The notes beneath the pieces were generated by a model. It worked only from the letters and a program-made list of their open reading frames with translations. It searched no databases and was not told the origin of the DNA. From a virus: DNA of 41,823 nt. A program made the position numbers and the translations under genes. This document shows positions 1 to 29,040 of the stretch, piece after piece. The DNA lies in the IMG/VR virus record IMGVR_UViG_3300046007_008906, positions 1-41,823 of that record; one strand, given 5' to 3'. The stretch's first letter is position 1; every line of letters begins with the position of its first letter.

Positions 1-244
1 CGGGTGCCTTCGCACCGTCCGTGTGCAGCCATTCCGCATCCGGCGCAGGCTCCTGCGTCCTCTTCGCCTGCCCCTTCAGGCCCACGAAGCGATACAGAAC
101 ACCGTCTTCGGTGATTTCCGGCTCGAAGAGCGCGTTATGCGGGATGAGCCTTGCGAGCCGCGGACGAAGGGAAAACTGCCCCGTGCCCGTGGTTGTGACC
201 TTCTTGCCCTTCTTACGGCGAGGGCGAACCATTACTACCGCCAT
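1..244 (-). CDS. Partial early-operon hypothetical protein, N-terminal part (left copy)
   Basis: The start ATG at 244 is preceded by an AGGAGG ribosome site. The frame runs off the window at base 1, leaving about 81 residues. It matches the first 81 residues of the complete gene at 40588-40914. The product begins MAVVMVRPRRKKGKK and is basic at its N-terminus. The differences from the other copy that I translated are silent, which indicates a functional gene under purifying selection rather than sequencing noise. On a circular map this gene continues at the right end of the window. No family is recognised. Confidence 0.85.
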   Translation of the reverse strand, partial: MAVVMVRPRRKKGKKVTTTGTGQFSLRPRLARLIPHNALFEPEITEDGVLYRFVGLKGQAKRTQEPAPDAEWLHTDGAKAP

Positions 245-285
245 TTCTGCCTCCTGTTTCGGCGGGTTTCCACTTACGCCTATAC

Positions 286-294
286 ATGATAGCA
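286..294 (-). promoter_or_regulatory. Extended -10 promoter, TGCTATCAT (left copy)
   Basis: On the minus strand the sequence reads TGTGCTATCATGTATAGG, a TG-N-TATCAT extended -10 element about 42 nt upstream of the 244 start codon. The same element is found at 27639, 29041, 31711 and, minus strand, at 40957. No clear -35 hexamer is visible, as expected for an extended -10 promoter. It should drive the leftward early operon. Confidence 0.65.
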
Positions 295-334
295 CAGCCT
301 CTGACGGAACCCGGTTTGGCCCCTCAAACACAGC

Positions 335-374
335 GAGGCCGCCCCGGGGGAGACACCAAACCCGGGACGGCCTC
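335..374 (-). terminator. Covarying hairpin, probable terminator of late operon (left copy)
   Basis: The arms GAGGCCG-c-CCCGGG and CCCGGG-a-CGGCCTC pair perfectly except for one internal C/A mismatch, around a 12-nt loop. The matching hairpin at 41006-41041 has CGCGGG paired with CCCGCG, so one base pair has flipped from C:G to G:C. It lies downstream of the last lysis gene and upstream of the early promoter, the expected place for a terminator. No strong U tract follows, so it could be an actinobacterial-type terminator or another structured element. Confidence 0.6.
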
Positions 375-387
375 TGTGACGAAAGGA

Positions 388-407
388 GCCAGCTAACGCC
401 AACTGGC
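388..407. other. Second, sequence-variable hairpin (left copy)
   Basis: GCCAG and CTGGC form a 5-bp stem around a 10-nt loop. At the equivalent place in the right copy (41059-41085) the stem is a different 8-bp sequence, CGGGCTAG/CTAGCCCG. A stem is kept although the bases changed. It sits just after the stop of the last lysis gene and may work with the neighbouring larger hairpin. Confidence 0.4.
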
Positions 408-447
408 AACCTGCTCTACAGGATAGCAAAATGAACAGCCGGAACGG

Positions 448-768
448 CTACTTGCCCTTCAACTCCCGGCTTCGACGCTGGGCGAGCCGATAGATCGCTC
501 GCGCCTGCTGCTCGTTACCCGGCACCCGCATACCCCACGCCCTAGCGGTCAGCGCCGCCCTCGTCGGGCGACCCTTCTCATCCTTCATCGGTGGCAAATT
601 CTTCTGGCCGTAAAAACGAGAAGCCCACGAGATCCAGCGCTTCTTGTCCGCAGGCGAAGCCGACGAGTAATTCTTCACGCCCGGCTTCAGGTTCGCGCCC
701 TCCTTCGCTTTGAAGTGACGGCGACCGGCAGCCGTAAGGCCGCCCTTCGGATCCCTAAGCCGACCCAT
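448..768 (-). CDS. Small basic lysis-region protein, DUF6321-like (left copy)
   Basis: A 106-residue basic protein starting MGRLRDPKGGLTAAGRRHFK, with a conserved-looking LKPGV segment and a C-terminal Arg/Gln-rich helix. The DPKGGLTAxGR and LKPGV pattern is widespread in small phage proteins (DUF6321-type, named from memory and uncertain); the role is unknown. I chose the ATG at 768 because an upstream TTG-initiated extension is not kept in the right copy, while MGRLRDP is. It overlaps the preceding holin-like gene by 14 nt and is the last gene of the late leftward block. The right copy (41115-41441) differs mainly at the extreme C-terminus (RELKGK versus RGMKSRSG). Confidence 0.8.
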   Translation of the reverse strand: MGRLRDPKGGLTAAGRRHFKAKEGANLKPGVKNYSSASPADKKRWISWASRFYGQKNLPPMKDEKGRPTRAALTARAWGMRVPGNEQQARAIYRLAQRRSRELKGK

Positions 769-997
769 CGCTCCACTCCGGATCAACTACGGCCTCTTCA
801 AATTCTTCCACAGGCTCTTCCTCATACTGGATCTTCTGCGGGGGGATTACCCGGAAGCTAGCGTACACAGCCAGAGCCGCAGCGAGAATTCCCGTCACGG
901 TGTTTGAGAGATCCGGTGTAAGAGCCTTCGACGCCACGAGAGCGCTAAGGACAACGGCTACAAAAGCCTTAATGCTTTCAATCTGCTTAATGGTCAT
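755..997 (-). CDS. Holin-like two-helix membrane protein (left copy)
   Basis: An 80-residue protein with two hydrophobic segments (about residues 9-29 and 35-52) joined by a short SKALTPDLSN turn. An acidic tail rich in Glu follows (EEEPVEEFEEAVVDPEW). Size, two helices, charged tail and location beside an amidase and a peptidase fit a class II-type holin that would permeabilise the host membrane. The ATG at 997 has a GGTGGAGGAAAT ribosome site and overlaps the RusA stop as ATGA. The right copy differs only by conservative changes such as I/V. An alternative is a membrane protein of other function, since holins have little sequence signature. Confidence 0.6.
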   Translation of the reverse strand: MTIKQIESIKAFVAVVLSALVASKALTPDLSNTVTGILAAALAVYASFRVIPPQKIQYEEEPVEEFEEAVVDPEWSDGSA

Positions 998-1398
998 ATT
1001 TCCTCCACCCACCCGCGAGTGAGTTCTTTCGGTCCATAAAATTTCTCCGCCTCCAAATGGAGCACGAACTTATCGTCAGCAATCACGGGCGGATTGCTTT
1101 TCTGCGCAGCGTCCAGTAAGGCCCTGCACAATTTATCCAAATCCGCCTGTGGCGGAAAGTCATACTTAGGGTTCTTCGGGCGTTCAAACACAAAGGCGAT
1201 GTGCACCCGGTACGGCGGCTGGAGTTCCAGCCCGCCGGACAACGCTTCCTCCGCCGCCCTCATCCACGGGCCAACACGCTTATTCTGCTCCCGGGTGTAA
1301 ACGCTCCCGTCCTTACGGAAGCCCACGGCTCTACTCCCCTTCGGCGCTGGCCTCCCCGGAATTTCGAATTCTACGCGGCGGCGGTTTCGACGGCTCAT
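994..1398 (-). CDS. rusA: RusA-family Holliday junction resolvase
   Basis: This 134-residue protein has the RusA layout. An N-terminal FEIPGRPAPKGSRAVG strand/loop is followed by a central QADLDKLCRALLDAA motif with D86 and D88, then VIADDK with D108/D109 followed by a lysine. These acidic residues correspond to the metal-binding Asp set of RusA dimers, which cut four-way junctions symmetrically. A phage would use it to resolve branched concatemers before packaging. The start overlaps the upstream HNH gene by 68 nt; the ATG at 1398 has only a weak ribosome site, so the exact start is less certain. It ends in an ATGA overlap with the holin-like gene, so the two are coupled. A second, partial copy lies at 41667-41823. 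Confidence 0.85.
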   Translation of the reverse strand: MSRRNRRRVEFEIPGRPAPKGSRAVGFRKDGSVYTREQNKRVGPWMRAAEEALSGGLELQPPYRVHIAFVFERPKNPKYDFPPQADLDKLCRALLDAAQKSNPPVIADDKFVLHLEAEKFYGPKELTRGWVEEI

Positions 1399-8900: not shown

Positions 8901-11900
8901 GCGTCTGCCTCAGCGTCAAGACGAGCCTCTGCCCTGACCGCGCGTGTCTGCGCCCGACCCTGAGCTTCCGTAAACCGACCCGGAAGCCCCTCAGCCCTAA
9001 TCTTTGGCCGCACCGTTTTTGGTGAAGTAACTCGGAAAACCGGAACGCCATCCCATGTAGCGTTATCGCGCTGAGTACGGGTCAGCTTGCCCTCAGCGTA
9101 AGCGTTGCGAACCTGCCGATTGTGATTTTCTATAGCTTCATCGTAAAAGCGCCGGAATTCTATCTCTTCATCTGGACGCAGTTCTCGGAAACGACGATCA
9201 CCATTAAATTCATCTACGAGACTGTCAACGCTCTGGAATCCCCGAAGCTCCAAAACGCTATCCGGGGCAAGCACAACCTCGTTCTCAGCGGTCGCCTCTC
9301 CGCGAAAAGCACGCTGATCCGTTGGGCTGCCGCGCATCGTATCGCCGTTACCCTCGTCAACGCTAACTTTCTGCGCAGCCCTAGTCAGCAATAGCTTCGT
9401 ATCGGAAGGCACCTCAATAATGATCGCGGTCCCCTGCTCCTTCGTGACCCGACCCTTAATAAATCCGTTAAACTCAGCACCCGCCCTGCCCTCCCCAAGA
9501 GAAGCGCTGATAAATCCTTCGTCTTGCAGGCGCACAGAACCCGTCTTCCTCGCAAACGTACTCGCGTCTATCTCGCTAAGTAGTACCTTTTCCCCGGTAG
9601 CGGGATCAATAAACTGAGCATTCGCAGGCAGAGTACGCTTGACAAAAATAGACTCCCCCGGCTTAGACAGGGGAACATCGTCACCGACAACGAACGATTC
9701 TGTCCCGCGGAATTTCTTAAGATTGAACAGCCCAGCGAGCCTTGCCCACTGCTGCGCGATCTCGCGCCCAGTCAGCAGGCCACTCAGGTACCGGCGATCA
9801 AACTGCACAATAAATTCGGGGTCAATATCGCGCAATTGGCGAGCGTGAAGGTTCACCGCACCGTAAAACGGCCAATCATCTTGATAATCCTTAAATGCCT
9901 GCCTACTAAGTCGCTTCGGCCCAAACTCCCCGCCCGTGCTCCCAACAATTGCGTTAAAATCGTCCGAAAATCCACGAGTGTTATTGCTGCGTGGGGACGG
10001 TTCCTCCGGATTAAAACGAGCGCCCGGACCAATCTGATCCCCAAGCGCAGTACGCCGACCAACATCCGCCACCTGCTGATCCGTCAGAGCATCCGCCAAC
10101 TCACGCTGACCTTCGGGCAACGCATCCTGCGCGGCCTTACGCTGCCCCTGCACCCGAAGCTGCTCATCAAGATCAGCGTCAATCCCCCGAAGCGCGTCAA
10201 GCGTCACCTGATTACGACGAGCATCCTTACGCTTTGTATTAAGCGCGCTGCCACTACTTAAACTGTCAGGGTCTAGCAGCGTGTCGAAAACAAGTTTCGC
10301 GTCCGAAATTGCGCCCTTCTTCGGATAAAGCGCGCGCTGCCTCCTAGCGGCACGCTCCAGCAAATAAAGCTCATTGACGCCAACCCGAAGATCGTCAATG
10401 AGACTCAAATCTTCGTTGCTGGTTTCAATAATGTTACGCTCACGCGCCAGCTTCTTCGCTGCCGCGCGCGCTTCAGGATCCTTACTTTTACGGCCAAGCT
10501 TGATAGCCTGATCCAAAACCTCTTCAACTTGCTTCTCATAAATTGGGAGAAGCTGGTCGGATCGGTCCAGCAAATCAGCTTGTTTGAGGCGGGTAAGAAA
10601 CTTTGCAGTATCTGCAAAAGGAGTTTGCCCAGCCGCTTGAAACTGTTCCTGCTGGTAAAAGCCTCTACGGCCCCGCAGAAACTCTTGCATAATTTCTGCC
10701 TGCCGGACAGGAAGCTCTACTTCAATAGACTTACGCCCAGCGGCTACTTGCTGCGCCTTGCGACCGCCAGAGCGAATGGTTTTTTCGGTAAATGGCCTGC
10801 GACCCAAAGGTGCCATCCCAGAGCGAGCCATTTCTACTTCAATGGTGTCCAGCATCTGAGCCACCGCTTCAGCGCGCGGATCCCCAGAAGCGCGATAAAC
10901 ATTCACTATTTCGGTGTTAAGGCCGTCGCCAGCAGCAGCGGGACGCCGAACGCCAAGCTCTTCCCACGCCCGATGCGTCGTGTTAAATTCTCTGGAAATT
11001 CGATTAGCGGCAGCGGGGGAGATTTTCACGCGCACCGTGCCCTCACGCGGCTTAATATCCTCCGGGCGTACTCCACGAACAGGAGCGTTAATATCCATCG
11101 TGTCGCCAAGCTGCGCGCCACGTTCTTCCGCCATGCGAATCCGAACAGGGGCATCCGGGGTGCGCTTAATCGCTTCACTCTCAGCGTACCTGCGTAGATC
11201 CTCTCCCGTGCGACCATCGCGGCGGCCCTGCTCCATCGCCTCCGCCTTCGCCTTATCGTAGGCTTCTTTTCGCGCGCGCTGCGACTTAATCTTCAAACGA
11301 CCACGAGCATAATCAACGCCAAACTTCGCGGTGTTACTGAAAATATTGTTGGTTGGGCGAAGACGAACCTGCTTGCCGCCCTTATTAATGAAACGTTCGC
11401 CACCAGCGTCCCTTCCGCCTACGGTCGTACGCCGCGCCACACCAGACACAAGCTGCGCCGTGCGCCCAGCACGAGCAGGAGTCCCACCAGCGCGAGAAAT
11501 TTCATTAGCTGCTGCCGCCGCCCTAGCAACCCTGCCGCTAGTCGCCGCAGCCTGAAGACCAGCACCAACGCCCTTACCGGCCACAGTAAGCACAGCGAAC
11601 GAATCCAGCACCTCCGCAGCAACGCCCTCCCTCTCCAGACGCTTACGGAACTCCTTGTCCTTACCCTGCATGAGCGCGCCATAACGACGCGAGTAATCCT
11701 TCTTGATCTGCTCCCAAACCGTTTCCGGACCCTGATCGGCGGCCATGTAAATACCAGCAGGCACGCTCTTAATCATTTCCGCGTAATCCTTCACAAGACG
11801 CGGAATCTGTTCACCCGGATTATTCGCAACCGCCTCAGCCGAATACGCCGGAACCTTGTAAACCAGCGACACGCCCCGGTCCAGCTTGTCCGCGCTCGGG

Positions 11901-13324
11901 CCGCTAGTGCGCACACCACTGCTCCCAATCTCTATGCGGCTCTTAGGCGAAGCCCCAAGCTGCTCCTTCTTAGCTTCATAAAGAAACTTGCCAGCGCCAG
12001 CGGCCACCTTCCCAGCACCAGCCAGCGCTTTCCCGGTATTACTAAAGCCCTTCGCAACACCCTTCGGAAGCTTACCGGGCGCACCAAAATCACCAATTTT
12101 AGCAGGATCACTAGCATCCCGCACATTTTTGGTAAGCAGGCCCCCCACCGCCTTGCCTGCATTAAGGATATCTTTACTGTCCAGCTTTACATCAATTAGA
12201 GGCTTACGGTCCGCGCGCTTCTTCGCAAGCGCACGCTCACGCCTAAGCCGCGCCTCATACTGAGTGCGAGTCTCACCAGAAAGCACCCCCTGCCGGGTCA
12301 GCCTGTCCGCAGCACGAGCACGACGCTCCAACGAAACCTTCCGGCTCCGCAGAATTTTCACATCCTTAGCGGCCTTCTTCTGCTCCTGCTTGGCCGCATA
12401 CTTCATCTGGCGAGCCTGCTGCTTATACGCATACGGCTTCCGCCCCCGCGGCTTCGGAAGCGAAGCAGAAGGACGAAGAACCTTCGGAGTCTTCAGCGGC
12501 TTTTTCTCAGCGGCTTTAGCGCGCTCTTCAATCGTAGGCTTCGGCTTGTAGCCCTTGCGAGTCGGAAGAATTTGCGGATTAAGAAGATTATTGGCCTGCT
12601 TGACCTTCGCCTGCGTAACCGGGCGAGTAACCTCATCCAAACGCTTCTGCGCAGCGCGAATCTGAGGATCGCTAGATTTACGATTAAGAGTCGAAAGAGT
12701 AGGCGTAGCGGCACCCGGCACCTTAATCTGATTCCCGCTCTTCTTCCCGGTCTTACGATCAAACCCGGGGGCCAAAAGCTGCGGCTTCGTCTTGTCCCTA
12801 GCCGCTGGCTCCGCGCCCAGCGCAGCCTTACTCCGCTTCTCCGAAACACCCCGACGAATACCAGCCTTAGTATTCTGAAGCTCAACATTAACCTTCTTAC
12901 CCGTCACCGAACGGATAAGCCGCTCCTGCCGCTTCTCTTCCTTCTGAAGCGCCCGGTAAACCTCACCACCAAGCGAACGCGACTTCAGCCGCGCCTTTTC
13001 GTACTCAATCGTGCCCGGCTTATAGCGCCCCACACGATACGCCTGCCCTGAAGGAGAAAGCTTCCGCGGATTAGGTGAACTACGAATTACGGTACGGCGA
13101 GACTCCTTCGACTTGCCCGGCAGCAAAGCCTTAGACTTCGCGGACGGCAGAGGCTTGAAAACAGGGGAACGCTTCGGCCTAGACCGGCTCGGGACAACCT
13201 TCCCGCCCTTGCGGACAGGACGAAACCCCGGAGCGACAACGCCGCGCCCCGGAGTCCTCTTAGGAGTCTGAATTTTCTGCGCGCCAACCTTCTTAGCGCG
13301 AGGCTGCGACCGATAACGAGGCAT
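5954..13324 (-). CDS. Giant 2456-aa virion/ejection protein with apparent ADP-ribosyltransferase domain
   Basis: The longest gene, running without interruption. Residues 1-400 are extremely Lys/Arg-rich and probably bind DNA. Glycine/alanine-rich amphipathic stretches (about 415-450, 570-600) follow. Around 1140-1365 the motifs of an R-S-E ADP-ribosyltransferase appear in order: FRGTESF (R1206), EGFISASL (S1273, S1275), a GTAIIIEVP strand, and ENEVVLAP (E1347-x-E1349). Residues 1950-2200 contain semi-hydrophobic segments and an ERRVLGRFVMFYGF motif like the C-terminal parts of large phage polyvalent proteins. The C-terminus is a KKKKKARRKK tail. It follows two coiled-coil internal proteins and precedes a wall hydrolase, the T7 gp14-15-16-like order of ejected proteins. 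Injection into the host with the genome is inferred, not shown. Confidence 0.85.
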   Translation of the reverse strand: MPRYRSQPRAKKVGAQKIQTPKRTPGRGVVAPGFRPVRKGGKVVPSRSRPKRSPVFKPLPSAKSKALLPGKSKESRRTVIRSSPNPRKLSPSGQAYRVGRYKPGTIEYEKARLKSRSLGGEVYRALQKEEKRQERLIRSVTGKKVNVELQNTKAGIRRGVSEKRSKAALGAEPAARDKTKPQLLAPGFDRKTGKKSGNQIKVPGAATPTLSTLNRKSSDPQIRAAQKRLDEVTRPVTQAKVKQANNLLNPQILPTRKGYKPKPTIEERAKAAEKKPLKTPKVLRPSASLPKPRGRKPYAYKQQARQMKYAAKQEQKKAAKDVKILRSRKVSLERRARAADRLTRQGVLSGETRTQYEARLRRERALAKKRADRKPLIDVKLDSKDILNAGKAVGGLLTKNVRDASDPAKIGDFGAPGKLPKGVAKGFSNTGKALAGAGKVAAGAGKFLYEAKKEQLGASPKSRIEIGSSGVRTSGPSADKLDRGVSLVYKVPAYSAEAVANNPGEQIPRLVKDYAEMIKSVPAGIYMAADQGPETVWEQIKKDYSRRYGALMQGKDKEFRKRLEREGVAAEVLDSFAVLTVAGKGVGAGLQAAATSGRVARAAAAANEISRAGGTPARAGRTAQLVSGVARRTTVGGRDAGGERFINKGGKQVRLRPTNNIFSNTAKFGVDYARGRLKIKSQRARKEAYDKAKAEAMEQGRRDGRTGEDLRRYAESEAIKRTPDAPVRIRMAEERGAQLGDTMDINAPVRGVRPEDIKPREGTVRVKISPAAANRISREFNTTHRAWEELGVRRPAAAGDGLNTEIVNVYRASGDPRAEAVAQMLDTIEVEMARSGMAPLGRRPFTEKTIRSGGRKAQQVAAGRKSIEVELPVRQAEIMQEFLRGRRGFYQQEQFQAAGQTPFADTAKFLTRLKQADLLDRSDQLLPIYEKQVEEVLDQAIKLGRKSKDPEARAAAKKLARERNIIETSNEDLSLIDDLRVGVNELYLLERAARRQRALYPKKGAISDAKLVFDTLLDPDSLSSGSALNTKRKDARRNQVTLDALRGIDADLDEQLRVQGQRKAAQDALPEGQRELADALTDQQVADVGRRTALGDQIGPGARFNPEEPSPRSNNTRGFSDDFNAIVGSTGGEFGPKRLSRQAFKDYQDDWPFYGAVNLHARQLRDIDPEFIVQFDRRYLSGLLTGREIAQQWARLAGLFNLKKFRGTESFVVGDDVPLSKPGESIFVKRTLPANAQFIDPATGEKVLLSEIDASTFARKTGSVRLQDEGFISASLGEGRAGAEFNGFIKGRVTKEQGTAIIIEVPSDTKLLLTRAAQKVSVDEGNGDTMRGSPTDQRAFRGEATAENEVVLAPDSVLELRGFQSVDSLVDEFNGDRRFRELRPDEEIEFRRFYDEAIENHNRQVRNAYAEGKLTRTQRDNATWDGVPVFRVTSPKTVRPKIRAEGLPGRFTEAQGRAQTRAVRAEARLDAEADALEANPPKLMSAGRRGLQEQVVPMLFSNRWFGFDGQVRRNIARASGAAFMAMRIEQGEIERKFRRELAELSETEREAFFYSLRFGIRTPEQARTLLPEWRTRILNMREEMVQGKSEFGDISGDMWHVFDEIPNIERLLRDADNAFTPRLAEFSERMRGLAREKGLMDPTLNGDRLKMRMAEIGAQGRMVGVHLEDFAEDPLKPTRGEKEAYIKAVEEKRGELGLAQAGFFRGERRPRRPNADRAVGGTQAVLPDKQLKFRLIDYGASDTDPEVFLRGVMGNIKRRYNYNKVADVADMVGSRTYRNMTATQILDAIEAGDVNPNDSVIWNPRVYNRRLEEMDQVIAEAERKAVQDALIEERGITANPFTRNIDPKTTAGKRKLTREANMLADDAVSDLDTPDGQARVHTALTDSAWTPDDLARYEAERALGPGRNTPAADYERSGFMVIPKAAYEEIFAATKPSGAKMRTLAIAQGKVSRILLANPVWLQFQFASNALLTALVSGTGPVSIIKAQIWWNKLPEEVKQAVSPYVGIHRWYDPQNKLGAAQYSGMFAKPLNDLSNGYRGLKTTEFWRKGANANPLTLILKGDNAQNNWFRRAVLYNSVKRETYRQMGEDMGQAMRIQTQIMDSLTGLGPEEAMRKLLSQQDKIEEHAQYVDSILGNWNTYTNWERRVLGRFVMFYGFLRFSTKLTFYTMPVQHPITSAIMLKLGEMQRDELRRIFGADIPYWEIGNYYKAGGDNTRIEVARINPFFNLYSAFLGTSREQLTNAEDPTSFAALGPTNEKIVYDLNPEFQGLDPRSMFTFVPPYLTILADQITKSSNALGGKPWTSDGSPAWDKPTDSKIGAADRLQILINQMFRLSPYYRALEKTGLPGKEPNTPFGPLRGKQTSDSSFFAPNPVKYSQRDVRSRRKARKNQKIIREQQKSAKQDVGELLGPVWIGTPGKPRIESAQDFEKERPGQKKKKKARRKKGLLTTESLKK

Positions 13325-14572
13325 CTACTTCAACCGCGGGAAATCGCTCATCTTGTAACCCTGAGCACGAAGTCTCCTGCGATTAGTAGCACTCACCTTT
13401 CCACGGTAAATAAGGTCATTAATAATATCAATCGCTAGCGGCTCGTAAGCCCCATCGCGGAGATAACGCTGCCGAACCTTGCCATGCGACCAGCCCTGCT
13501 TCTTCTTATCCCTAATCTTGCCGACCAGCGTATCCAGCCGAAGGCTGAAATCCTGAATATCGGACGCTGAAGCGCGCGGACGTTTACTCTTACTAGACCC
13601 GCCGCCCCCGCCATTGGCAGCCTTAGAAGCGCGAGTATTTGCGTCCTGCTGCTTAATTCCAAGCTCCTGAAGCGCAAGCTGATACATACGATCCTTCTGC
13701 TTCGCATCCTGACTAAGCTTCGACTTCGCCAAAGCATTTGCAGAAAGCGTTCTCTGAAGAGCCGCCTCAACCGTAGCCTTCTCAATAACCTGACTCTGAG
13801 CGTTCGCAACCGCCTTATCCAAAATCTTCTGGCGGAAATCAGCCTTATTCCTATTCAGATCATTAGACTTACGATTAAGGTCCACATTTGCAGACAAATA
13901 ACGAGCAAGGGCATCGGCCTGCTGCGCGCCAGCACCAGCCTCATTCGCGCCCATCATCGTAGAAGCACTACGCGCACGCTCCTGCGCCGCCAGAGCCTGA
14001 GAACGAAGCACCGCCTCACGAGAATTTGCGGCCTGATCGGCAGCCGTCTTATACGCTGCCCCAGCATCAGGGCCACCAAGCCCAAGATCACTAGCGCGCT
14101 TAGAAAGCGCATCAGCCTGAGCCTGATCCTGCGAATTAGAAGCCTGACGCTGCGCGTCAATCTGCCCCACATTAGCCGTATTAAAAGTACGGTTCTGCTC
14201 ATCAATGCGGGCCTGCGCGTCACGAATACCCTGCTGATAACGCCCAAACCACTGGGTGTCGCGCTCCTGATTAGCTTGAAGCTGCGTTCGCTGACGCGCC
14301 ATTTCCGCATCAGTATCCCGATACTGAAGGCCCTCTTCATAGGCCATCATGTTCTTCAGCTTCCCAAGCGTCATGCCGGAATCCGGCACAATCTCCATCG
14401 CGTCAAGGGCCGCCCTCGCCTTATTCTCAGTGTTCTTCTTACGGGTAGCCTGCATTTCAGCAGGAAGAAAACGGGTAGGCAACTGCGCCCGCAAACGCGG
14501 GTTAGCGAGATACCGATTAAGCTGGGCCTGCGAAAATTTTTGAACCTTGCTGGCCGGAAGACGCTTCGCCAT
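13325..14572 (-). CDS. Internal virion (ejection) protein, coiled-coil, 415 aa
   Basis: A 415-residue Gln/Ala/Arg-rich helical protein with long heptad-like regions (about 90-300), a GGGGGSSKSKRPR linker near 325-340, and a compact basic C-terminal domain ending in RLRAQGYKMSDFPRLK. It starts at an ATG directly after the stop of the gene before it and ends directly before the giant gene. Composition and position match internal core/ejection proteins of short-tailed phages. No sequence family recognised with certainty. Confidence 0.7.
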   Translation of the reverse strand: MAKRLPASKVQKFSQAQLNRYLANPRLRAQLPTRFLPAEMQATRKKNTENKARAALDAMEIVPDSGMTLGKLKNMMAYEEGLQYRDTDAEMARQRTQLQANQERDTQWFGRYQQGIRDAQARIDEQNRTFNTANVGQIDAQRQASNSQDQAQADALSKRASDLGLGGPDAGAAYKTAADQAANSREAVLRSQALAAQERARSASTMMGANEAGAGAQQADALARYLSANVDLNRKSNDLNRNKADFRQKILDKAVANAQSQVIEKATVEAALQRTLSANALAKSKLSQDAKQKDRMYQLALQELGIKQQDANTRASKAANGGGGGSSKSKRPRASASDIQDFSLRLDTLVGKIRDKKKQGWSHGKVRQRYLRDGAYEPLAIDIINDLIYRGKVSATNRRRLRAQGYKMSDFPRLK

Positions 14573-15364
14573 TTACCTTTTCCCCTTCTTCTTCTTGGGC
14601 TTCTTAGCCTTAGGCTTCTGAGCGTCAAGAATAGTTTTCAAGAAATCCTGCATAGCGCTAGGCGGCGGAGTAGGATCAGTCGGGTTATCCTGCTCCCCAA
14701 ACGTAGGAGCATCCTCGGCCATCCGGCGCTGCATAAGCTGATCCTGAAGATCGGCCATTTTTGTTTCGTAATCAAGGTTCGCGGCATTCTCCTGCGCAAG
14801 AAAATCTGCTCTACGAGCAGCAAAATCCTGCTCCAAACCCTTTTTACTTTGATTAAAACTGTTAGCGTCGGACTGCAACGCTGCCAAATAAGCGCCGCTC
14901 GTCAAAGACCCGCGATTAGCGTAACCCTGCGCAGAACCCTTCTGCATCTGCATGTACGACTTATTCAAAAGAGCCGCACGCGAATACGGATTCGTAACAT
15001 CCACGTTCTCCGCAAACGTACCAGTGTTCGGGTCAAACCCATACTGCTCGTTAAGCGCAGTACGCTGGGCAGCAATCGAAGCAAGCTGGTTATCCCTACC
15101 CGTAAGCGCAGCCCCCGAATTAATCGTGTAAGAACGATCTGGGGCAGGATTCCCGTAATCTTTGGGGGGAGGCGGAGCGGCGGGGGGCGTAGCGGGCGGC
15201 GCAGCAGGAGGATTTGCGGCGGCAGCGACAGCAGCCCCCGCATTCGGGGGCATCGTGGAAGAGGTGCCAAAAGGATCTCCGGGGTTAACCCACGAAGCAC
15301 CAGACGGCTTTTTATACTTATTTTTCCAAAGCTGCTTAGACTTCCACTTTGGCACTCTCGCCAT
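14573..15364 (-). CDS. Internal virion protein, Pro/Ala-rich then helical, 263 aa
   Basis: A basic N-terminus (MARVPKWKSKQLWKNKYKK) is followed by a Pro/Ala-rich linker with repeated APPATPP-type runs (about 45-70). A helical region follows, with GYANRGSLTSGAYLAALQSDA and Gln/Ala/Glu heptads, and then a Lys-rich tail ending KPKKKKGKR. The start has a GAGGAT ribosome site. It directly abuts the 415-aa internal protein gene, so the pair with the giant protein probably forms the ejected core. The GSAQGYANRG...SGAYLAAL segment is seen in many phage internal proteins of this type. Confidence 0.65.
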   Translation of the reverse strand: MARVPKWKSKQLWKNKYKKPSGASWVNPGDPFGTSSTMPPNAGAAVAAAANPPAAPPATPPAAPPPPKDYGNPAPDRSYTINSGAALTGRDNQLASIAAQRTALNEQYGFDPNTGTFAENVDVTNPYSRAALLNKSYMQMQKGSAQGYANRGSLTSGAYLAALQSDANSFNQSKKGLEQDFAARRADFLAQENAANLDYETKMADLQDQLMQRRMAEDAPTFGEQDNPTDPTPPPSAMQDFLKTILDAQKPKAKKPKKKKGKR

Positions 15365-15381
15365 AATCTAATCCTCGTAAT

Positions 15382-16062
15382 TTATGTTAAACGCACAGGC
15401 ATAATCCGCCCGTAGAGATTTTGGACAGTTAATGTTGTGTTGTTATGCCAAACCTGTAGGCGAAACTCCAACACATTACCTGCCGTTAACGCCACGCGAA
15501 CTGTTTTATTAAGCTGCGTGTGCATGTAGTAAGCCCCAAAGAAAACCTGCGGAAGCGCCATTTGCTCCACGTTGGCAACGCTCGTAGTCGTGCCGTTAAT
15601 CCACAAACCAACCCAGTTAATTTGCGCAATCGTCTGGGTAGTCTGCGTCATGGAACCGCTAATCGTCACATCGTAAACGCCGGTTGCCGGTACCGTCAGC
15701 GTAGGCGCTCCCGCAATTAAATGTGTCGCAGGGGTGCTGAAAATATTCGTTGCGCAAACGGTCGTGCGATTTGTAACATCCTGTACGACCGCCGGGTTCC
15801 CACCTAAAACCTGCCACTTCTGGGCGGTTGCGGCACCAATAGAGTATCGGCAAGTCCAGACAACGCCATCGTTATCGTTCGACGCCCAGCCAGTAGGGCG
15901 ATAATGAACTACCTGCCCGTCAACCGGAGAGGCAGGAAGTGCCGTGACCAGCGGCACCTTATCGGGAACAATTTGTCCCAGCGCCTCAAAATTAGCTTGA
16001 ACCTTAAAAGGATCAAGTTCGCCAGCCCCGCCACGAACATCCGCATTAGGAAGCGCCGTCAT
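15382..16062 (-). CDS. Tail fibre/appendage protein, 226 aa
   Basis: The N-terminal 80 residues (DPFKVQANFEALGQIVPDK...HYRPTGWASNDNDGVVWTCRY) resemble the anchoring part of phage fibre-tip proteins. The remainder is Thr/Val/Asn-rich beta structure ending RIMPVRLT, like a C1q/TNF-type jelly roll (VPATGVYDVTISGSM, GNVLEFRLQVWHN). It is coupled to the collar gene by a TAATGA overlap. Host-surface binding is likely but inferred from composition and location. Confidence 0.65.
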   Translation of the reverse strand: MTALPNADVRGGAGELDPFKVQANFEALGQIVPDKVPLVTALPASPVDGQVVHYRPTGWASNDNDGVVWTCRYSIGAATAQKWQVLGGNPAVVQDVTNRTTVCATNIFSTPATHLIAGAPTLTVPATGVYDVTISGSMTQTTQTIAQINWVGLWINGTTTSVANVEQMALPQVFFGAYYMHTQLNKTVRVALTAGNVLEFRLQVWHNNTTLTVQNLYGRIMPVRLT

Positions 16063-16832
16063 TACGCGATACGGATAATCTTGTTAATGACCTGATACGG
16101 CTGCCGGTTATCGTGCGAAGAACCGCCACCCGTGTTATTGTCAGTCGCTCCCGAACCAGTCGTGGTGACGGTGTGATTGTGAGCGCCATCTGTAGAAGTA
16201 AACTGACCAACGGACACAACGCTTCCAAAACTTGCGGTAAACACAGCCCCAGTCGCGTTATTCTTTAGCACATCACTGACGGCGTGGCTGTGAGCGCCGC
16301 CAGTAGAAGTCGTGCCGCTCGCGGAAAAATTCGTGATCGTGTGATTGTGAGCCGGAATCTGGGCGGTCGTTAGCGTCGTGCTAGCCGATCCTCCCGTATT
16401 CCCACGTGCATCATTATCCGGCAGGCGGGCAGCATCCCCCTGAGCGGTCCCCATCGTGTCCGGGCCAACAGACACGCGGCCACGGAGATCCGGAACATTA
16501 AACGTGGTCAGGGAATCCCCAGCGCCGTACGTAGTGCCCATGATCGTAAAGAGGCTCGCGTAGGTAGTGCGGCTAATCGCGCGACCATCAGCGAGAATCC
16601 ACTTACCAGCAACCGGATCGCTAGACCCACCATAATCCAGCAAAGCACCAATCGGCGCAAGCAGATCAATAACCGCGCTACTAAGCTCGGCAACGCCAAT
16701 AGACCCGTCCGTAATGTTAGCGGCGTCAATGCTATTGACACCAGTAACCAAAGCGGTCAGGTTAGCGTTAAGGTTATTAACATTTTCTGGCTGCCCAGCG
16801 GTCAGCGTAAAGGGAAGAGAAACAAGTGCCAT
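16062..16832 (-). CDS. Phage tail-collar domain fibre protein with HxH repeats
   Basis: A 256-residue protein. After a helical N-terminus, residues about 60-135 carry the tail-collar signature: YGGSSDP, GKWILADGRAISRTTYASLF and FNVPDLRGRVSVGPD. The C-terminal part has repeated His motifs (AHNHTI, AHSHAV, AHNHTV) in glycine/threonine-rich linkers. Similar HxH motifs bind iron in the trimeric needle of T4 gp37. It would be a trimeric receptor-binding or short-fibre protein. The start overlaps the preceding stop as TAATG. Confidence 0.85.
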   Translation of the reverse strand: MALVSLPFTLTAGQPENVNNLNANLTALVTGVNSIDAANITDGSIGVAELSSAVIDLLAPIGALLDYGGSSDPVAGKWILADGRAISRTTYASLFTIMGTTYGAGDSLTTFNVPDLRGRVSVGPDTMGTAQGDAARLPDNDARGNTGGSASTTLTTAQIPAHNHTITNFSASGTTSTGGAHSHAVSDVLKNNATGAVFTASFGSVVSVGQFTSTDGAHNHTVTTTGSGATDNNTGGGSSHDNRQPYQVINKIIRIA

Positions 16833-18673
16833 TATTTATCCAGTTTTGTTACGCTCGGAACCCGCGATTCCCGAACTCTGTGAACAATACGATTAACGGT
16901 CCATGCGCCCGGCGTGGTGTCGTCACTAGAAGATATTTCAATACTAAAATTGATACCCCGGACGGAATTTCTAGTTAAAGTGAAGTTTGACGCCTGCCCG
17001 GCACTCCACACATCATTCGGGTAATTAGGGTCCGGTCCCCAAGTGTCGGAACCGATATCGCCGCCAGCCCAAACATCCGTTCCCCTACCCAGATCCACGG
17101 TTGCTGCGTTTCTAGCTCCTTCAAGGTTACGAGCAATAGCGTAACGGAATTTTCCAAGCCCCCAAACCTGAGACTCACGAATCGTTTTATCCACAGAAGA
17201 ACCGTAGTCAAGAAACCCGTACTTCACGCGAGCAGTAAACGCAGCGCCAGCATCGGTCGTGGCAGAGGCCAACAGCCTCCCAAAAATCTGGTTGCCGGTA
17301 GCCCTAGCAAACACCAGAGACCCACCAATAGTGGAAAGCTGAATAGGCGACAACGCGGCGCATGGAATATTCCAAATACTCCACCAGCCAAACCGGGGGT
17401 CAAACACCAAAAGCGTATTATTGTCCGAAGAACTCCCGGTAGGAAGAGCAACAAAAATCTGTTGCCGGTAAAACGTCATACGTGCCTTGCTGATCGCACC
17501 GTAATTTACGGCGTTACCGCCATAAAGAAGCGGTAGGTCACCAGTGAACAGGGGATCTAGCAGGCTGGAGACAAGCTGCGGAGGTCCGCCATCCGTGCGG
17601 TAAATGCCTTTCTCCGAAAGAAAATAAACGCCGTCCGGAGCCACGCAAAGAGACTGCGGGGCAGCCAGCCCAACACCCGCGTCAATAGTCCGGAAGTCAA
17701 AGTTTGGGACGCCAAGACTGTTACCGCCAAGCGAAGTCCCATAAAAGACAAAAAAGCGTGTTTTCTTAAACACAAAAACATATGAACCCCAAGTAACCAT
17801 TCCCATGATCTCTTCGCCATCGCCGGGCGTAAGATCTACGTACTCGTAGCCGTCCCAAGCCAACGGGTTTGTCGCGCTGGAAAACCGAACCGTGTTTTTG
17901 TTTTGCCCACCCTGATTAGGGTTCACAGCCGGAGCGTAACGAGCGTTAACAAGGCGACTGTCCCACGGCGTAACTGCGCAAAACATTCCTGTAGGGTTTG
18001 GCGCGCTGTTCGTAATAGACCACGTAGGGGTGCTCCACGATGGGGACGCGCCCGTGTTATTCCACACGCGAAGCGGATCCGTGCCGTTCGACGCCCAAAG
18101 CGTCGGGACCGCCCTCGTGTTCCCCGAAGTGGTACCACCACCAAACCTAGTGAAAAAATTCGGAGAAGCGCTAATCCCAGAAGTCAGCGGGGTTCCAACA
18201 ACCGCCCCGGCAGAATTACGAACTTCAAGCCTACGGTTTGTGCCGTCCGTCATAGACACGGCCATTTGCCACGCCGACCCATCAGTGTACGAAGCCATAT
18301 TGTCCGCACGATAGGCAGCGAGGGCGTACACGGCAGTATCGTCAGCCGCAGCGGGAGCGCCCGTGCAGCCAGTGAAGGTAGTGGCCGTTTTCCCAGTGTA
18401 CGCGACCACCGAAGAGCCAATCTGGAGCGAACCAGCCGACTCAAAAGAAGAAGTCGAATCTACGGTAATCGTAGAAGCCCCGGCAGTAATAGCGCCATTC
18501 AAAGCCGTAGAAACATTAAAAATATCGTAGCCGGGGCGAGACTTAACTGCCCCGCGCTCCGTAAACGTCACATTAAGAAGATCGTACGCCTGACCGGGTT
18601 CAAGTTCATCCGCCTGATCGCGGAGATTAATACCACCACCAAAACCCGTGACAGGAACGCTCCCGTACGCCAT
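16832..18673 (-). CDS. Tail nozzle / stabilisation protein (T7 gp12 / P22 gp10-like)
   Basis: A 613-residue beta-rich protein. Its start GFGGGINLRDQADELEPGQA, then NVTFTERGAVKSRPGY, is the hallmark of short-tail hub proteins that plug and extend the portal. The remainder is propeller-like, with repeated hydrophobic/Gly/Asp blades (for example DGVYFLSEKGIYRTDGGPPQ) and ends in a VHRVRESRVPSVTKLDK tail. The ATG at 18673 overlaps the adaptor stop as TAATG; an upstream TTG in frame is not needed. With the adaptor before it, this forms the short tail. Confidence 0.8.
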   Translation of the reverse strand: MAYGSVPVTGFGGGINLRDQADELEPGQAYDLLNVTFTERGAVKSRPGYDIFNVSTALNGAITAGASTITVDSTSSFESAGSLQIGSSVVAYTGKTATTFTGCTGAPAAADDTAVYALAAYRADNMASYTDGSAWQMAVSMTDGTNRRLEVRNSAGAVVGTPLTSGISASPNFFTRFGGGTTSGNTRAVPTLWASNGTDPLRVWNNTGASPSWSTPTWSITNSAPNPTGMFCAVTPWDSRLVNARYAPAVNPNQGGQNKNTVRFSSATNPLAWDGYEYVDLTPGDGEEIMGMVTWGSYVFVFKKTRFFVFYGTSLGGNSLGVPNFDFRTIDAGVGLAAPQSLCVAPDGVYFLSEKGIYRTDGGPPQLVSSLLDPLFTGDLPLLYGGNAVNYGAISKARMTFYRQQIFVALPTGSSSDNNTLLVFDPRFGWWSIWNIPCAALSPIQLSTIGGSLVFARATGNQIFGRLLASATTDAGAAFTARVKYGFLDYGSSVDKTIRESQVWGLGKFRYAIARNLEGARNAATVDLGRGTDVWAGGDIGSDTWGPDPNYPNDVWSAGQASNFTLTRNSVRGINFSIEISSSDDTTPGAWTVNRIVHRVRESRVPSVTKLDK

Positions 18674-19296
18674 TAAAGTGACGCCCAATCGTGGCTATAG
18701 CCGTACGCAACAATCGAATCCGGATCCTGATGCTGCTGATACAGGTAATGCTCGCGCATAGACCCAATTAGCGTGTCGGCATCGGCGCGCACCACCTGCG
18801 CCATTTCCGGATTATCAGAATCAATGTACGCTCTACCGCAAGCAAAATCCACAATTGCGTAACGATAACGAGCGGGAATAAGCGGAGTATCCGTACCGTT
18901 GACGAGATCCGTCGGTACTTTAATGTACCTCACCGAAAGCGCGTCAGTGTTCCCCGGATAAGTGTTAATTGTGGTGCCGTCCGAAAGGTAAGCGTAAAGA
19001 GCGTTACCCGCCGCAGACTGGTCCGGGTACGCCTCGTTAAGCGTGCGGCGATCAATAAAACCAAGATTCGTCTGGGTCGTGGTGTCCGTAAGCGACAGAA
19101 TCGTTCGCATATCCGCGATAGTCAGCGGAGAAGCCCCAGTGGCCGTAGCCTCCAGAAACGGCCAATCATCCAGTCCACAAATTTCCTGATACGACTGGTT
19201 GATCCACTGCTTTGCGCGGGTTTCCCCCGCGCCGCTGTCATTTAGGTAATCAAACCCTCGTGCATAAAATTCAGTGAGAAGTTGTTGAAAAGTCAC
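18673..19296 (-). CDS. Head-tail adaptor (T7 gp11 / P22 gp4-like)
   Basis: A 207-residue protein starting with a GTG that overlaps the upstream stop as GTGA. The N-terminal FYARGFDYLNDSGAGETRAKQWINQSYQEICGLDDWPFL pattern (described by its key W-I-N-x-x-Y...W-P-F residues) is typical of adaptors that dock onto the portal ring of podoviruses. The C-terminal part carries an ARYRYAIVDFACGRAY helix. It sits immediately before the nozzle gene, as in T7- and P22-like genomes. Confidence 0.75.
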   Translation of the reverse strand: MTFQQLLTEFYARGFDYLNDSGAGETRAKQWINQSYQEICGLDDWPFLEATATGASPLTIADMRTILSLTDTTTQTNLGFIDRRTLNEAYPDQSAAGNALYAYLSDGTTINTYPGNTDALSVRYIKVPTDLVNGTDTPLIPARYRYAIVDFACGRAYIDSDNPEMAQVVRADADTLIGSMREHYLYQQHQDPDSIVAYGYSHDWASL

Positions 19297-19793
19297 TTAC
19301 GCGCTTTCTTTCCACGAACGCTATTTGTCCACCCGTCGCTCATGCTGACCTTCGGAACGTCCAGATGCGAAATGCGCTCTGCCATTTCAGTTCTACGCTG
19401 CTCTGCCTGATCCGCCTTCCGGCGCTCCATTTCCCTGACACGCTCATCCTGACGACGCTTAAACTCTTCAAACGCGCCGGGACGCTGCAAATCAGCCCTG
19501 CGCAGCATTTCAAGATGATGCGACTGCGGCTCCGCAAACCCACCCTTATCATCCGTCAGCGGAATATAAGTAGGCATTGTCTCCGGATTTTTCCGTTGCA
19601 CATGCCAAAACCCGGGGGTAAGACCGGCCTGATCGGCATTCTCAGAAGCCTTTACCAAAGACAGGTATGGATCAAGGCGCTGAAGCTCCGCGTCAAAATG
19701 GCGCAGCCAATCATGCCGCTTGTTCAAAGTTTCAAGCTGATTTTCAAAGTCTAGTTGGAGCCTAACATGCTCCGGCAAAATAATTCCCGACAC
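19293..19793 (-). CDS. Hypothetical structural-region protein, 166 aa
   Basis: A charged, helical protein with an early FENQLETLNKRHDWLRHFDAE helix and an Arg/Glu-rich coiled coil near residues 105-145. I place the start at the GTG at 19793 because GGGAGA lies six bases before it. The upstream TTG at 19805 has no such site and lies next to the terminator. It is the first gene after the capsid terminator and is coupled to the adaptor gene. No family recognised. Confidence 0.7.
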   Translation of the reverse strand: MSGIILPEHVRLQLDFENQLETLNKRHDWLRHFDAELQRLDPYLSLVKASENADQAGLTPGFWHVQRKNPETMPTYIPLTDDKGGFAEPQSHHLEMLRRADLQRPGAFEEFKRRQDERVREMERRKADQAEQRRTEMAERISHLDVPKVSMSDGWTNSVRGKKARK

Positions 19794-19814
19794 AATTTCT
19801 CCCAAGAATAGAAA

Positions 19815-19844
19815 CTAGCCCCGTGCCATTTGGCACGGGGCTAG
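19815..19844 (-). terminator. Intrinsic terminator after the major capsid gene
   Basis: A perfect 14-bp stem, CTAGCCCCGTGCCA paired with TGGCACGGGGCTAG around a 2-nt loop, lies 12 nt after the capsid stop codon. On the minus strand it is followed by TTTCTATTCTT. This should cut most capsid transcripts here and leave a minority for the tail genes, giving high capsid yield. Confidence 0.9.
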
Positions 19845-19855
19845 AATCATAACTG

Positions 19856-21064
19856 CTAGGTGAGACCCGACAGCTTGGCGTGGCTGTTACGCCTACGGCA
19901 ACCAAGTTGAATTCTCACAGACAGCTTACCAGCGTAGGAGTCGGTACCCTGTACCCACTCCAGCGTCTGTCCGCCGGTTACGCGAGACTGCCAATAGGGA
20001 TCTCCTGCCGAGACAGAGAGAACATCCCCAATGGTGAGGAAGAAAACATCCTCATTCTTGCAGTCCGGAACGGCGTAGAGCTTCACGCCGTTAATATCAA
20101 CGCCGTCAACGGAACCAACCGTCAGCGGAGCGTCGTTAGCGAACCGGACCTGAGCCTGAGCCAGAGTGTACGCGACACGCTGCTGCTTCAGACCAGTGAC
20201 CACGAAATCCGCGGCCTTGCCAGTCTTCTGGGCAATCTTCTGGTTCTGCTGATAAAGCAGAGACAGAGTGAGAGCCTGCGAAGTGGAATCCACACCGGCA
20301 GCCTTCCACTGAGACTGCGTGGCGGGATCAATCCCACCCAGCACCTCAGAAGTGCTGACGATCTTGTGGAGTCCGTTCATTTCGTATGAGGTCGAACCAC
20401 TACGGGCACCCTTCAGCGTCACAAAATGCGACGAGGTGGTGCTGACAGCCGAACCCGAAACGGTGATCGTGCTGTTGGCGAGGTCGGTAGCGGTAATCGA
20501 AACACCGGCCGCAACAGCGGTCGGGTTAGCCGAAGTACCGATATCAACCACGGCCCCAACGTCCAGCCAACCGCGCTCAATGGCGTTAAAACCACTGGTC
20601 GTGTTAAGCTGCACGGTAGTGGAGCTAGAGGTGGTACCACACTGAGCGATCTGGCCGGAACCGTCACCGAAAATCTGACGGGACAGGTTGCGGTTGAGAT
20701 CGTTCACAGCGCCAGAGACTTCCTCATCCACGACCGACGCGACCGCCAGCGCGTCACCGCGCGTCTGGTCAATAGCCGAACCCTGAATGCGGATCTGCTG
20801 GTGCTGGTTGGTGTACGACCACTGGGCCTGAGCATATGCCTGCTCGCCAGCGTCGTTAAGTGAGGTCGGGCTAGAAGAAGTAGCAGACCATCCCCAGTTG
20901 CGTCCCACGTGAATGGGAGTCAGGGCATACTCGCCCATCTGGGTATTCTTGAGCTTCTTCGCGCGATCAAGGATAGGGTTATCCTGATACAACTGCTCTG
21001 CGATTCGCTCTTCGGTCCACGTTTCCTTCAGCGCGGCCTGAATCGTACTGACAGTAGCTGCCAT
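19856..21064 (-). CDS. Major capsid protein (HK97-fold)
   Basis: A 402-residue protein in the canonical place after the scaffold gene. The N-terminal EERIAEQLYQDNPILDRAKKL helix and the NWGWSATS...AYAQAQWSYTNQHQQIRIQGSAIDQ region resemble capsid proteins of phages with P22-type portals. A beta insertion near 165-235 contains RGWLDVGAVVDIG. The ATG at 21064 has an AGAAAGGA ribosome site. A strong terminator follows directly, as for a highly expressed gene. The C-terminus ends with a basic GCRRRNSHAK stretch that is somewhat unusual. Confidence 0.85.
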   Translation of the reverse strand: MAATVSTIQAALKETWTEERIAEQLYQDNPILDRAKKLKNTQMGEYALTPIHVGRNWGWSATSSSPTSLNDAGEQAYAQAQWSYTNQHQQIRIQGSAIDQTRGDALAVASVVDEEVSGAVNDLNRNLSRQIFGDGSGQIAQCGTTSSSTTVQLNTTSGFNAIERGWLDVGAVVDIGTSANPTAVAAGVSITATDLANSTITVSGSAVSTTSSHFVTLKGARSGSTSYEMNGLHKIVSTSEVLGGIDPATQSQWKAAGVDSTSQALTLSLLYQQNQKIAQKTGKAADFVVTGLKQQRVAYTLAQAQVRFANDAPLTVGSVDGVDINGVKLYAVPDCKNEDVFFLTIGDVLSVSAGDPYWQSRVTGGQTLEWVQGTDSYAGKLSVRIQLGCRRRNSHAKLSGLT

Positions 21065-21098
21065 GTTAGAAACAGTCCTTTCTTAGGAACTATGGAAT

Positions 21099-21854
21099 TT
21101 ACTCACTATCGTTGGCTTCGATCAGGGCTGCCATCCGACGACGACGCTCATCTTCATTTCTGAAGTCGAACTTCTCATCGGCTGCGGACCCTTGAAGCGG
21201 CTGCCGTGGAGCCTTCTTAGAACCAATCCAATCCTTCTGCCGCTTACCGAAAAGCTCATTGAGCATTTCCTGCGCAGCGGCAATCTGGGGAAGGCCATCG
21301 GGGGTTAGATCCAGAGTCGCGGCAATACTAAGAACTGCCTGTTGCTCTGTCTCATCCTGAATTCCCAGACGATCCATTTCACCTTCGGTGAAAGTTTCGA
21401 TCTCCTGTAGAATTTCCCTCTCCTGCTGGGTCTGCTTATAGCTTTCCCATTCGGCAGTAAGCTGGTCAACACGGGGATCACTGAAGGAAAAATCATCCTC
21501 TTCTTCAGAGAAATCATTTCCGGCAGGGTTGTCCTCTGCGTCGGCCTCAAAACCGGCAGCGGTGAGGTACGTATCCTCACCGACAAACTCGGCAAGCTGG
21601 CGAAGCGCTTGTTCGCGCGTATAGTCGTCCTGAAGCGCACTCACAAACTCCGTTGCCGCCTCTGCTTCCTTACGAAGCTCGGCAAGCTCCTGAGTTTTGC
21701 GCGTATAATCCGCCTGCATAGACTTGTACCGGGCTTCAAGCTCCGGCGGCAAATCATCAGCGGAAGTGAACGACGAATCGCTTGTCCCAACGCCAGTGTC
21801 AGGGGATGCGATATTTTCGTCCGACTGGGCCTCAATGGGCTGTTCGGAATCCAT
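21099..21854 (-). CDS. Scaffolding protein
   Basis: A 251-residue very acidic, helical protein with no Cys. The ELEARYKSMQADYTRKTQELAELR coiled coil lies near residues 37-65, followed by an acidic stretch EEEDDFSF and a basic C-terminus RNEDERRRRMAALIEAND. This build, with a C-terminal helix that contacts capsid, and the location between portal and capsid genes fit a scaffold that directs procapsid assembly and then leaves. The start has a TAAGGAG ribosome site. Confidence 0.8.
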   Translation of the reverse strand: MDSEQPIEAQSDENIASPDTGVGTSDSSFTSADDLPPELEARYKSMQADYTRKTQELAELRKEAEAATEFVSALQDDYTREQALRQLAEFVGEDTYLTAAGFEADAEDNPAGNDFSEEEDDFSFSDPRVDQLTAEWESYKQTQQEREILQEIETFTEGEMDRLGIQDETEQQAVLSIAATLDLTPDGLPQIAAAQEMLNELFGKRQKDWIGSKKAPRQPLQGSAADEKFDFRNEDERRRRMAALIEANDSE

Positions 21855-22047
21855 CTACTACTCCTTAATAACGACGACTGCCCTTTTGGCTTGGTCGCCT
21901 ATTTCCCAACCCCCCAAAAGGGGGAAGTTTTAAGACACGAGCTATCCGGGCTTTTCTCCCGTGTCGGGGGCTATCTGTCACGGGCCACATAGGCTCTTGC
22001 CGCGCGGCGCGGACCCCCACGCGCCCGAAGGCGCGTTGATAAATTTG
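21855..22047 (-). other. Gap between portal and scaffold genes with small hairpins
   Basis: This 193-nt gap is the only sizeable break in the head genes. On the minus strand, just after the portal stop, CGCGCC-TTCG-GGCGCG (22020-22036 region) forms a tight stem followed by TGGGGGT, so it would be a poor terminator. Closer to the scaffold start is CCCCC-TTTT-GGGGG near 21910-21925. A leftward promoter for scaffold and capsid could lie here, but I see no convincing -35/-10 pair. Confidence 0.4.
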
Positions 22048-24024
22048 TTACTGCGCGGGAGGCGCGTCCGGCGTAGGCATATCCGGCATGGGCGTCGGGC
22101 CAGTCGGGCGGGCGGCGTTCGCCATCCCAAGCTGCTGCGCCATCATGCTCTGCTGCTGCGCGGCCTTCATCTGCTCCTGTTCCTCCATCCAGTCCAGACC
22201 CTGAAGGTAAAGAAGCACAGCCTCACGCACCGCTTCCTCCGCAAGCTCAAATTCCTGAGTCTTAGCAAAATCTTGGAAAATACTGCGGTGAACAGCGAGA
22301 TTGTCAATACCCGGACGAGGCATCCACGAAGGAGTCTCAGCCCCCCCGGGGCCAACCTGAAGCGGTTCGCTAAGGAAAGCTTCCGGGCCAGCCATAATTT
22401 TCTGAAGGACACGGTGGCACCGGGCAACATCAAGCTCGTAGGAATCCACCACATCCGCAGCGGTCCCCTGCTCCACGGCAGCCATAGCCTTTTCCGGGCT
22501 AATCCACTGACGATCAGCATACGCAAGCACGCGCTGCTCCAGCGCCTGACGAGTACGCGGCTCAATGCTTTCCGGAAACACAGTCACATCAACCTGAGAG
22601 CGAAGATCCGCACCAACAAAATCTTCAATACTTTCCGGACCAAACCTGCCGTTAATTTTTACTAGGCGAGGCTCAGTGTAATGACGAGCAACCAGCATCA
22701 GGCAGTGGCGCATCACCTGACCGTGGAATTCCGCGAGCCGACCCAAGAAATTAGAACGGGCAGCGGCGTCACGCTCAATGAGCACCTGAAGCGCACGGCC
22801 AGAAGCGTCCACGGGCGTGTCATTCTGCGCCGCCATGCGGTTCATATCCATAAGCGCTTCCTGCTTCAGCGTCGAAAGCTCCGCAGGAATCGGCGGGGTG
22901 GGACGCCACTCCGGCTTCAAGCCAGAAACCGGGTTATACACAAACACTGCGCCCGGCTGATCGGTAAGGCGCTGACGCTTCGGGAACGCGCCCATAGGCG
23001 CAAAAACCTGCGGCATCAGGGCAAGATTCTTCCATTCAAGCTGCTTATTCGTGCAGTCATTAATAGTCCGCTGCGAATCCAGCAGAGAAGCAACCAGACC
23101 AATATCCCGGTCGTTATCCGGATCAAGAATGTAAGAAATTTTGTGCAGCACCGGAGAATCCACAGGATCACCATTCGGATCAATCAGCGGATACTTCTCA
23201 GGCGGCGCGATAAGCTTCCCGTTCGCTATGCACATCCGGCGACCTTCCGGGTATTCCTTACACGGACGCTCCAAATAATCCGTGACCATCACAAGCTTCT
23301 GCGTGTCACGCTTATTTGCGCCCAGCGTGCCGTCCGAACCAGCGTCCGGGGTCAGCTTCGTACCGGGAAGAAAACCGGGGATATGCTTCGCTCGGTCCAT
23401 GCTCATCGCACGGCGCACAATGTACCAGCGGGAATCTTCAAACCTTACGCCCGGCTCCCAACCCACTTCATTCGGACCTAGAACTTCTATGCGCACATCC
23501 CCAAGCCCCACAACCGTGCCATCCTCATCCCTCAAATAAGGAGGAATCGAAGAATCCCAGTAAGGCCAAACAAAACCCTCATCGGCCACCACAGCGTACG
23601 TAACGGCCTGCTCTGTCACCCGGCGCACATCCCAAGCGTCAAATCCGTAATACGCGACCTTCTGCGAAATACGCGCAGCATTCACATCATCCGGGTCACT
23701 GGTGCTGGGGTTAATCTGATACGAAGGAACGCGCTGAGTAGCGGCGGACACCTCCTGCCGAACAATTGGCTGAATAAGGTTACGGGTCGTGCGCACACGA
23801 TGGCGGGGCTTACCGCCCTCACCGAGAAGAACACCCTGCCTGACCAGCCAGTTTTCCTTATTACGGTAAACGTACTGGTTGCCGCGCCAAAACTCTAGGC
23901 ACTCGTTACGACGAGCAGCGCCCATATCAATCTGGTTTTTTCCCTCTTCGATCCGTGCAGCGACCTCACCGGGGATTTTCTGCCCCACACCGAGGGCAGC
24001 TTTTACTTCTTCAACTGTCGGCAC
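22048..24024 (-). CDS. Portal protein (P22 gp1-like)
   Basis: A 658-residue protein with the long-portal signature: an N-terminal helix, then LEFWRGNQY, RVRTTRNLIQPIVRQEVSAATQRVPSY, a DVRRVTEQAVTYAVVADEGFVWPYW block, and a Gln/Met-rich C-terminal tail (residues about 610-640). The dodecameric ring forms the DNA channel at one vertex. The start is a GTG after GGAGGG, overlapping the upstream stop as TAGTG. Its length and C-terminal barrel-like tail match short-tailed phages. Confidence 0.9.
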   Translation of the reverse strand: MPTVEEVKAALGVGQKIPGEVAARIEEGKNQIDMGAARRNECLEFWRGNQYVYRNKENWLVRQGVLLGEGGKPRHRVRTTRNLIQPIVRQEVSAATQRVPSYQINPSTSDPDDVNAARISQKVAYYGFDAWDVRRVTEQAVTYAVVADEGFVWPYWDSSIPPYLRDEDGTVVGLGDVRIEVLGPNEVGWEPGVRFEDSRWYIVRRAMSMDRAKHIPGFLPGTKLTPDAGSDGTLGANKRDTQKLVMVTDYLERPCKEYPEGRRMCIANGKLIAPPEKYPLIDPNGDPVDSPVLHKISYILDPDNDRDIGLVASLLDSQRTINDCTNKQLEWKNLALMPQVFAPMGAFPKRQRLTDQPGAVFVYNPVSGLKPEWRPTPPIPAELSTLKQEALMDMNRMAAQNDTPVDASGRALQVLIERDAAARSNFLGRLAEFHGQVMRHCLMLVARHYTEPRLVKINGRFGPESIEDFVGADLRSQVDVTVFPESIEPRTRQALEQRVLAYADRQWISPEKAMAAVEQGTAADVVDSYELDVARCHRVLQKIMAGPEAFLSEPLQVGPGGAETPSWMPRPGIDNLAVHRSIFQDFAKTQEFELAEEAVREAVLLYLQGLDWMEEQEQMKAAQQQSMMAQQLGMANAARPTGPTPMPDMPTPDAPPAQ

Positions 24025-27206: not shown

Positions 27207-27331
27207 TAACGCCGCCTAGCCTTCTTAACCTTCTTCTTCACCGGCTTCTTCAACTTCCTGCACGAACCCGGAGCACAAGGCTTCACGCCCGGGACACGCC
27301 CATAACCAGCCCAACAATCACACGCCATCAT
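27206..27331 (-). CDS. Cys-rich basic microprotein, 41 aa
   Basis: From ATG 27331 (or the adjacent ATG 27328) the frame reads MMACDCWAGYGRVPGVKPCA and so on, with four Cys (CDC, C19, C24), and ends in a run of Lys/Arg. The TAG overlaps the terminase GTG, so it looks like the first cistron of the late block. The ribosome site AAGGA lies just upstream. The CxC...C...C spacing could be a mini zinc knuckle. Unknown function. Confidence 0.6.
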   Translation of the reverse strand: MMACDCWAGYGRVPGVKPCAPGSCRKLKKPVKKKVKKARRR

Positions 27332-29032: not shown

Positions 29033-29040
29033 ACTGCCGC

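Follow-up and report, generated by a model that had tools for sequence, protein, structure and literature searches.

In circular contigs with exact k-mer ends, both ends of the contig represent one place of the circle. Two relatives of the DNA studied here, found through the terminase, are of this kind: the complete genomes G009 (44,772 bp) and G010 (47,574 bp) each close on an exact 127-bp repeat at their ends and contain no further duplication. Terminal redundancy in headful phages also places direct repeats at the two ends, and their length would be plausible for the case described here, but the redundancy of one molecule is normally identical. A maximum k of 127 is stated for metaSPAdes runs, and de Bruijn assemblers break where multiple paths occur, as described for COBRA (PMC10914622); in another reported case, the assembly came to an end because circle closure was not unique, either of two variant fragments being able to complete it (PMC7111523). 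We analysed an entire IMG/VR virus record (41,823 bp; hereafter the window). It very probably represents a circularly mapping phage genome of ~40.67 kb that was wrapped around imperfectly in the assembly of a mixed-strain metagenome, the two ends of the record being one segment in two alleles. Both ends would thus represent one place of a circle, as in G009 and G010, but the overlap is 1.15 kb long and 10% divergent, since the two passes would use different strain alleles. As in the breaks described earlier (PMC10914622; PMC7111523), strain variants would form alternative paths at which a contig ends, whereas the window holds both alternatives in one contig, one at each end. In contrast to the redundancy of a single headful molecule, the two copies show about 22% synonymous differences.

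Self-BLASTN of the window aligns positions 1-1148 with 40671-41821 on the same strand at 90.4% identity (1051/1162 identities, E=0), with 86 substitutions and 25 gap columns, and this bears out the collinearity of 1-1153 and 40671-41823 described in the first-pass annotation. The repeated segment lies in direct orientation at both contig ends, and its copies reach both ends of the record: they start at positions 1 and 40671, and the alignment extends to 1148 and 41821, with the record ending at 41823. We therefore refer to 1-1153 as haplotype 1, at the contig start, and to 40671-41823 as haplotype 2, at the contig end, on the basis of the alignment and the record limits. Apart from this alignment, the window matches itself only at a 30-bp palindrome (19815-19844). 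An exact-run analysis shows that the haplotypes coincide completely over their first 124 bases (1-124, identical to 40671-40794), beyond which the longest exact run common to both is 72 bases. Following the 124-base block there are 4 substitutions in the rest of the first gene of the segment (geneA, to position 244), and differences become dense, with indels, from about 300 to 540. Divergence is low in geneA, highest in the noncoding spacer and the 3' end of the DUF6321 gene, low again inside that gene, and high in the small hydrophobic protein gene.

All genes of the overlapped segment lie on the minus strand. In copy 1, geneA (MAVVMVRPRRKK...; 2-244) is truncated by the contig start after 81 codons, and its intact counterpart at 40588-40914 encodes 108 aa; no family was found for geneA. 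The DUF6321 protein gene (Pfam PF19846, E=5e-25) lies at 448-786 in copy 1 and at 41115-41498 in copy 2, and the gene for a small hydrophobic, putatively holin-like protein, which matches no PHROGs or Pfam family, lies at 755-1012 and 41428-41685. A RusA-like Holliday junction resolvase gene (phrog_140, E=4e-16; PF05866) is complete at 994-1398, while its counterpart at 41667-41823 is truncated by the contig end and retains the C-terminal 51 codons only. Thus the gene truncated at either end (geneA at the start, RusA at the end) is found intact at the opposite end, and a single 40,670-bp circle contains one copy of each gene. Alternatively, about 1.15 kb at the late/early junction could have been truly duplicated, in tandem or end to end, with the copies diverging under purifying selection afterwards. 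Such a duplication would accommodate the selection acting on both copies (see below) and the intact state of the DUF6321 and holin-like genes in both. It is nevertheless improbable, because the copies end at the contig ends, because geneA and RusA are each truncated in one copy, and because self-BLAST finds no diverged kilobase repeat in six relatives (G002, G004, G007, G009, G010, and G011), among which the complete circles G009 and G010 are the two that cover the whole genome. The coincidence of the outer limits of the copies with the record ends is required by an end overlap, whereas an independently placed duplication needs no such coincidence.

The differences between the copies carry a strong signature of selection. 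With the four genes pooled, 51/233 synonymous sites differ compared with 14/739 nonsynonymous sites (P about 3e-20), where neutral change would give about 24% synonymous differences. The dS values are 0.07 for geneA, 0.28 for DUF6321, 0.41 for the holin-like gene, and 0.36 for RusA, while dN over the four genes is 0-0.027 and omega is at most 0.1. Of about 199 aligned bases in the noncoding spacer (245-447 in copy 1 and 40915-41114 in copy 2), 26 are substituted, and 18 of the 25 gap columns fall there, which makes the spacer more divergent per base than the coding DNA. At synonymous sites of the DUF6321, holin-like, and RusA genes downstream, divergence is higher still (47/171; Fisher P=0.0006), indicating that the spacer itself is constrained and is not the freest-changing part of the segment. 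A 13-bp minus-strand stem in the spacer remains paired in either allele through a C-G to G-C double change, and a second stem also pairs in both, as GCCAG/CTGGC in copy 1 and CGGGCTAG/CTAGCCCG in copy 2. Both spacers yield calls of terminator-like hairpins, which exceed the expectation from shuffled sequence only modestly, and a search of the window against Rfam, the spacer hairpin included, gives no known RNA family.

The silent bias in the genes, together with the retained hairpins and their compensatory change, indicates working haplotypes rather than errors; judged from the sequence, the copies are two real, functional versions of the segment under selection. The view that the differences are mostly silent within genes and reflect neither sequencing error nor an exact repeat is hence confirmed, while the view that they are concentrated in noncoding DNA, with indels, holds per base against the coding DNA but not against the synonymous sites downstream. 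A fixed, exact virion terminal repeat of the T7 type in which errors of sequencing or assembly had obscured the identity would share the direct orientation at both ends. Against it stand the 86 substitutions with their strong synonymous bias, the intact frames, and the compensatory hairpin change, none of which resembles error. Moreover, packaging copies a true terminal repeat anew, which keeps its two copies identical. A T7-type repeat is thus close to excluded, given that packaging would homogenise it; as a candidate, it fails on identity, with 86 substitutions and 25 gap columns between the ends.

Different alleles at the two ends could also arise in a terminal-redundancy heterozygote, that is, one packaged headful molecule from a mixed infection with a different strain allele at each end. 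Such a molecule would have been cut from a recombinant concatemer after co-infection, with about 2.8% redundancy, and caught in environmental DNA. Headful phages have terminal redundancies in the range of 1153/40670, and a P22-type portal (PF16510) is present, both of which agree with this possibility. It would require the sequence of a single molecule, however, since a short-read population assembly would lose the ends of one virion, and the terminase profile gave only weak matches against solved structures; we regard this origin as very unlikely.

The window is best explained by an ordinary, known assembly effect with a real biological cause, namely co-existing strains, and not by a duplicated genome segment. 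In this wrap-around, the record would span the 40,670-bp repeat unit of a circularly mapping tailed-phage genome once and run on for about 1.15 kb, and the assembler would have entered the segment between the late/lysis and replication genes twice. The first pass would have taken the allele of one strain (1-1153), and the second, after a full circle, that of a co-occurring strain (40671-41823). We infer that separate DNA molecules in the sample carry the two alleles, which this walk round the circle joined. Because the alleles are ~10% different, the ends would not be recognised as the same, and the circle would be neither closed nor trimmed. The longest later exact run of 72 bases means that the alleles remain separate paths at k of at least 77. 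Three observations do not fit easily with a wrap-around. The shared block at the start is 124 bases long rather than a usual k such as 127, so that no clean k-mer signature is claimed. The end copy stops while still divergent, without rejoining the other allele; the simplest closed-bubble picture therefore fails, and a coverage drop or a further fork must be assumed. Finally, searches with the holin-like gene, RusA, the gene at 39769-40530, and an exact 27-mer common to both copies, and blastn against phage records, found no record with a single junction copy or crossing the junction, in a search from which records very close to the window may be absent. Single-strain wrap-around would give an exact overlap of k-mer length, but the identity here is 90.4% and no exact terminal repeat was found at either end of the window; we thus file the record as the strain-variant form of the circular-contig effect and not as an ordinary exact circular contig.

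Relatives of the record agree with this strain-variant wrap-around. From the equivalent of ~39364 backwards to that of 1868, G002, which is the closest long relative and has 86% terminase identity, follows a single unit collinearly and lacks a second copy, and it breaks in the same variable region as the window. G001 is 99.98% identical to the window over 15,560 bp (11769-27328), after which an abrupt indel of ~170 bp and about 3% substitutions set in; the ~170 bp are extra in G001 (L014; window 27329-27341) and lie between the terminase gene and the early genes. This transition from identical to divergent sequence resembles that at the window start. At the sequence level, near-identical sister strains such as G001 do exist, and G001 is not necessarily from the sample of the window. 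The first-pass annotation had offered either two strains stitched into a wrapped contig or a tandem duplication; the copies at both ends, the complementary cut genes, the circular single-copy relatives, and the sister strains all support the former, and nothing supports the latter.

The DUF6321 gene (448-786) is also common to 36 IMG/VR contigs at about 50-75% identity, most of which have no other gene in common with the window in the flanks that were retrieved. The gene thus resembles a mobile module present in many otherwise unrelated phages, and since these relatives share that module only, they are uninformative on the junction. Such mobility would favour a chimera in which one end comes from a different phage sharing just this module. 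However, collinearity at 90% extends over all four genes in the same order and over the spacer, and the first 124 bases are identical, which makes a chimera highly improbable; a foreign end would in any case still be a variant of the same segment.

In practice, the record is best handled as a near-complete ~40.67-kb circle with an ambiguous kilobase at its closing point, and its gene count is about four too high. Exact-repeat tests are blind to an overlap that is 10% divergent, and a near-complete phage record is consequently missed as circular. Screening for diverged end overlaps could recover further complete genomes from such collections, and the ends of this record preserve within-population variation under purifying selection.

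Elsewhere in the genome, a tyrosine integrase gene (PF00589) adjoins the homologue of 38634-39395 in both G002 and G004, and in G004 a divergent HTH repressor-like gene is present in addition. Neither the integrase nor the HTH gene has a match in the window, and the lineage of the window may therefore have lost or swapped its lysogeny module at 38634-40530. The gene at 28915-30624 encodes an AAA ATPase (PF07728) whose best PHROG, phrog_249, is labelled porphyrin biosynthesis, and its product is probably a cobaltochelatase-like MoxR-type ATPase. A search of bacterial genomes gave as its only match a 3.3-kb contig (JAJTCL010000479.1; L079) that is binned with a Propionibacteriaceae MAG and encodes a portal protein 48% identical to that of the window, and this portal relative weakly hints at an actinobacterial host.
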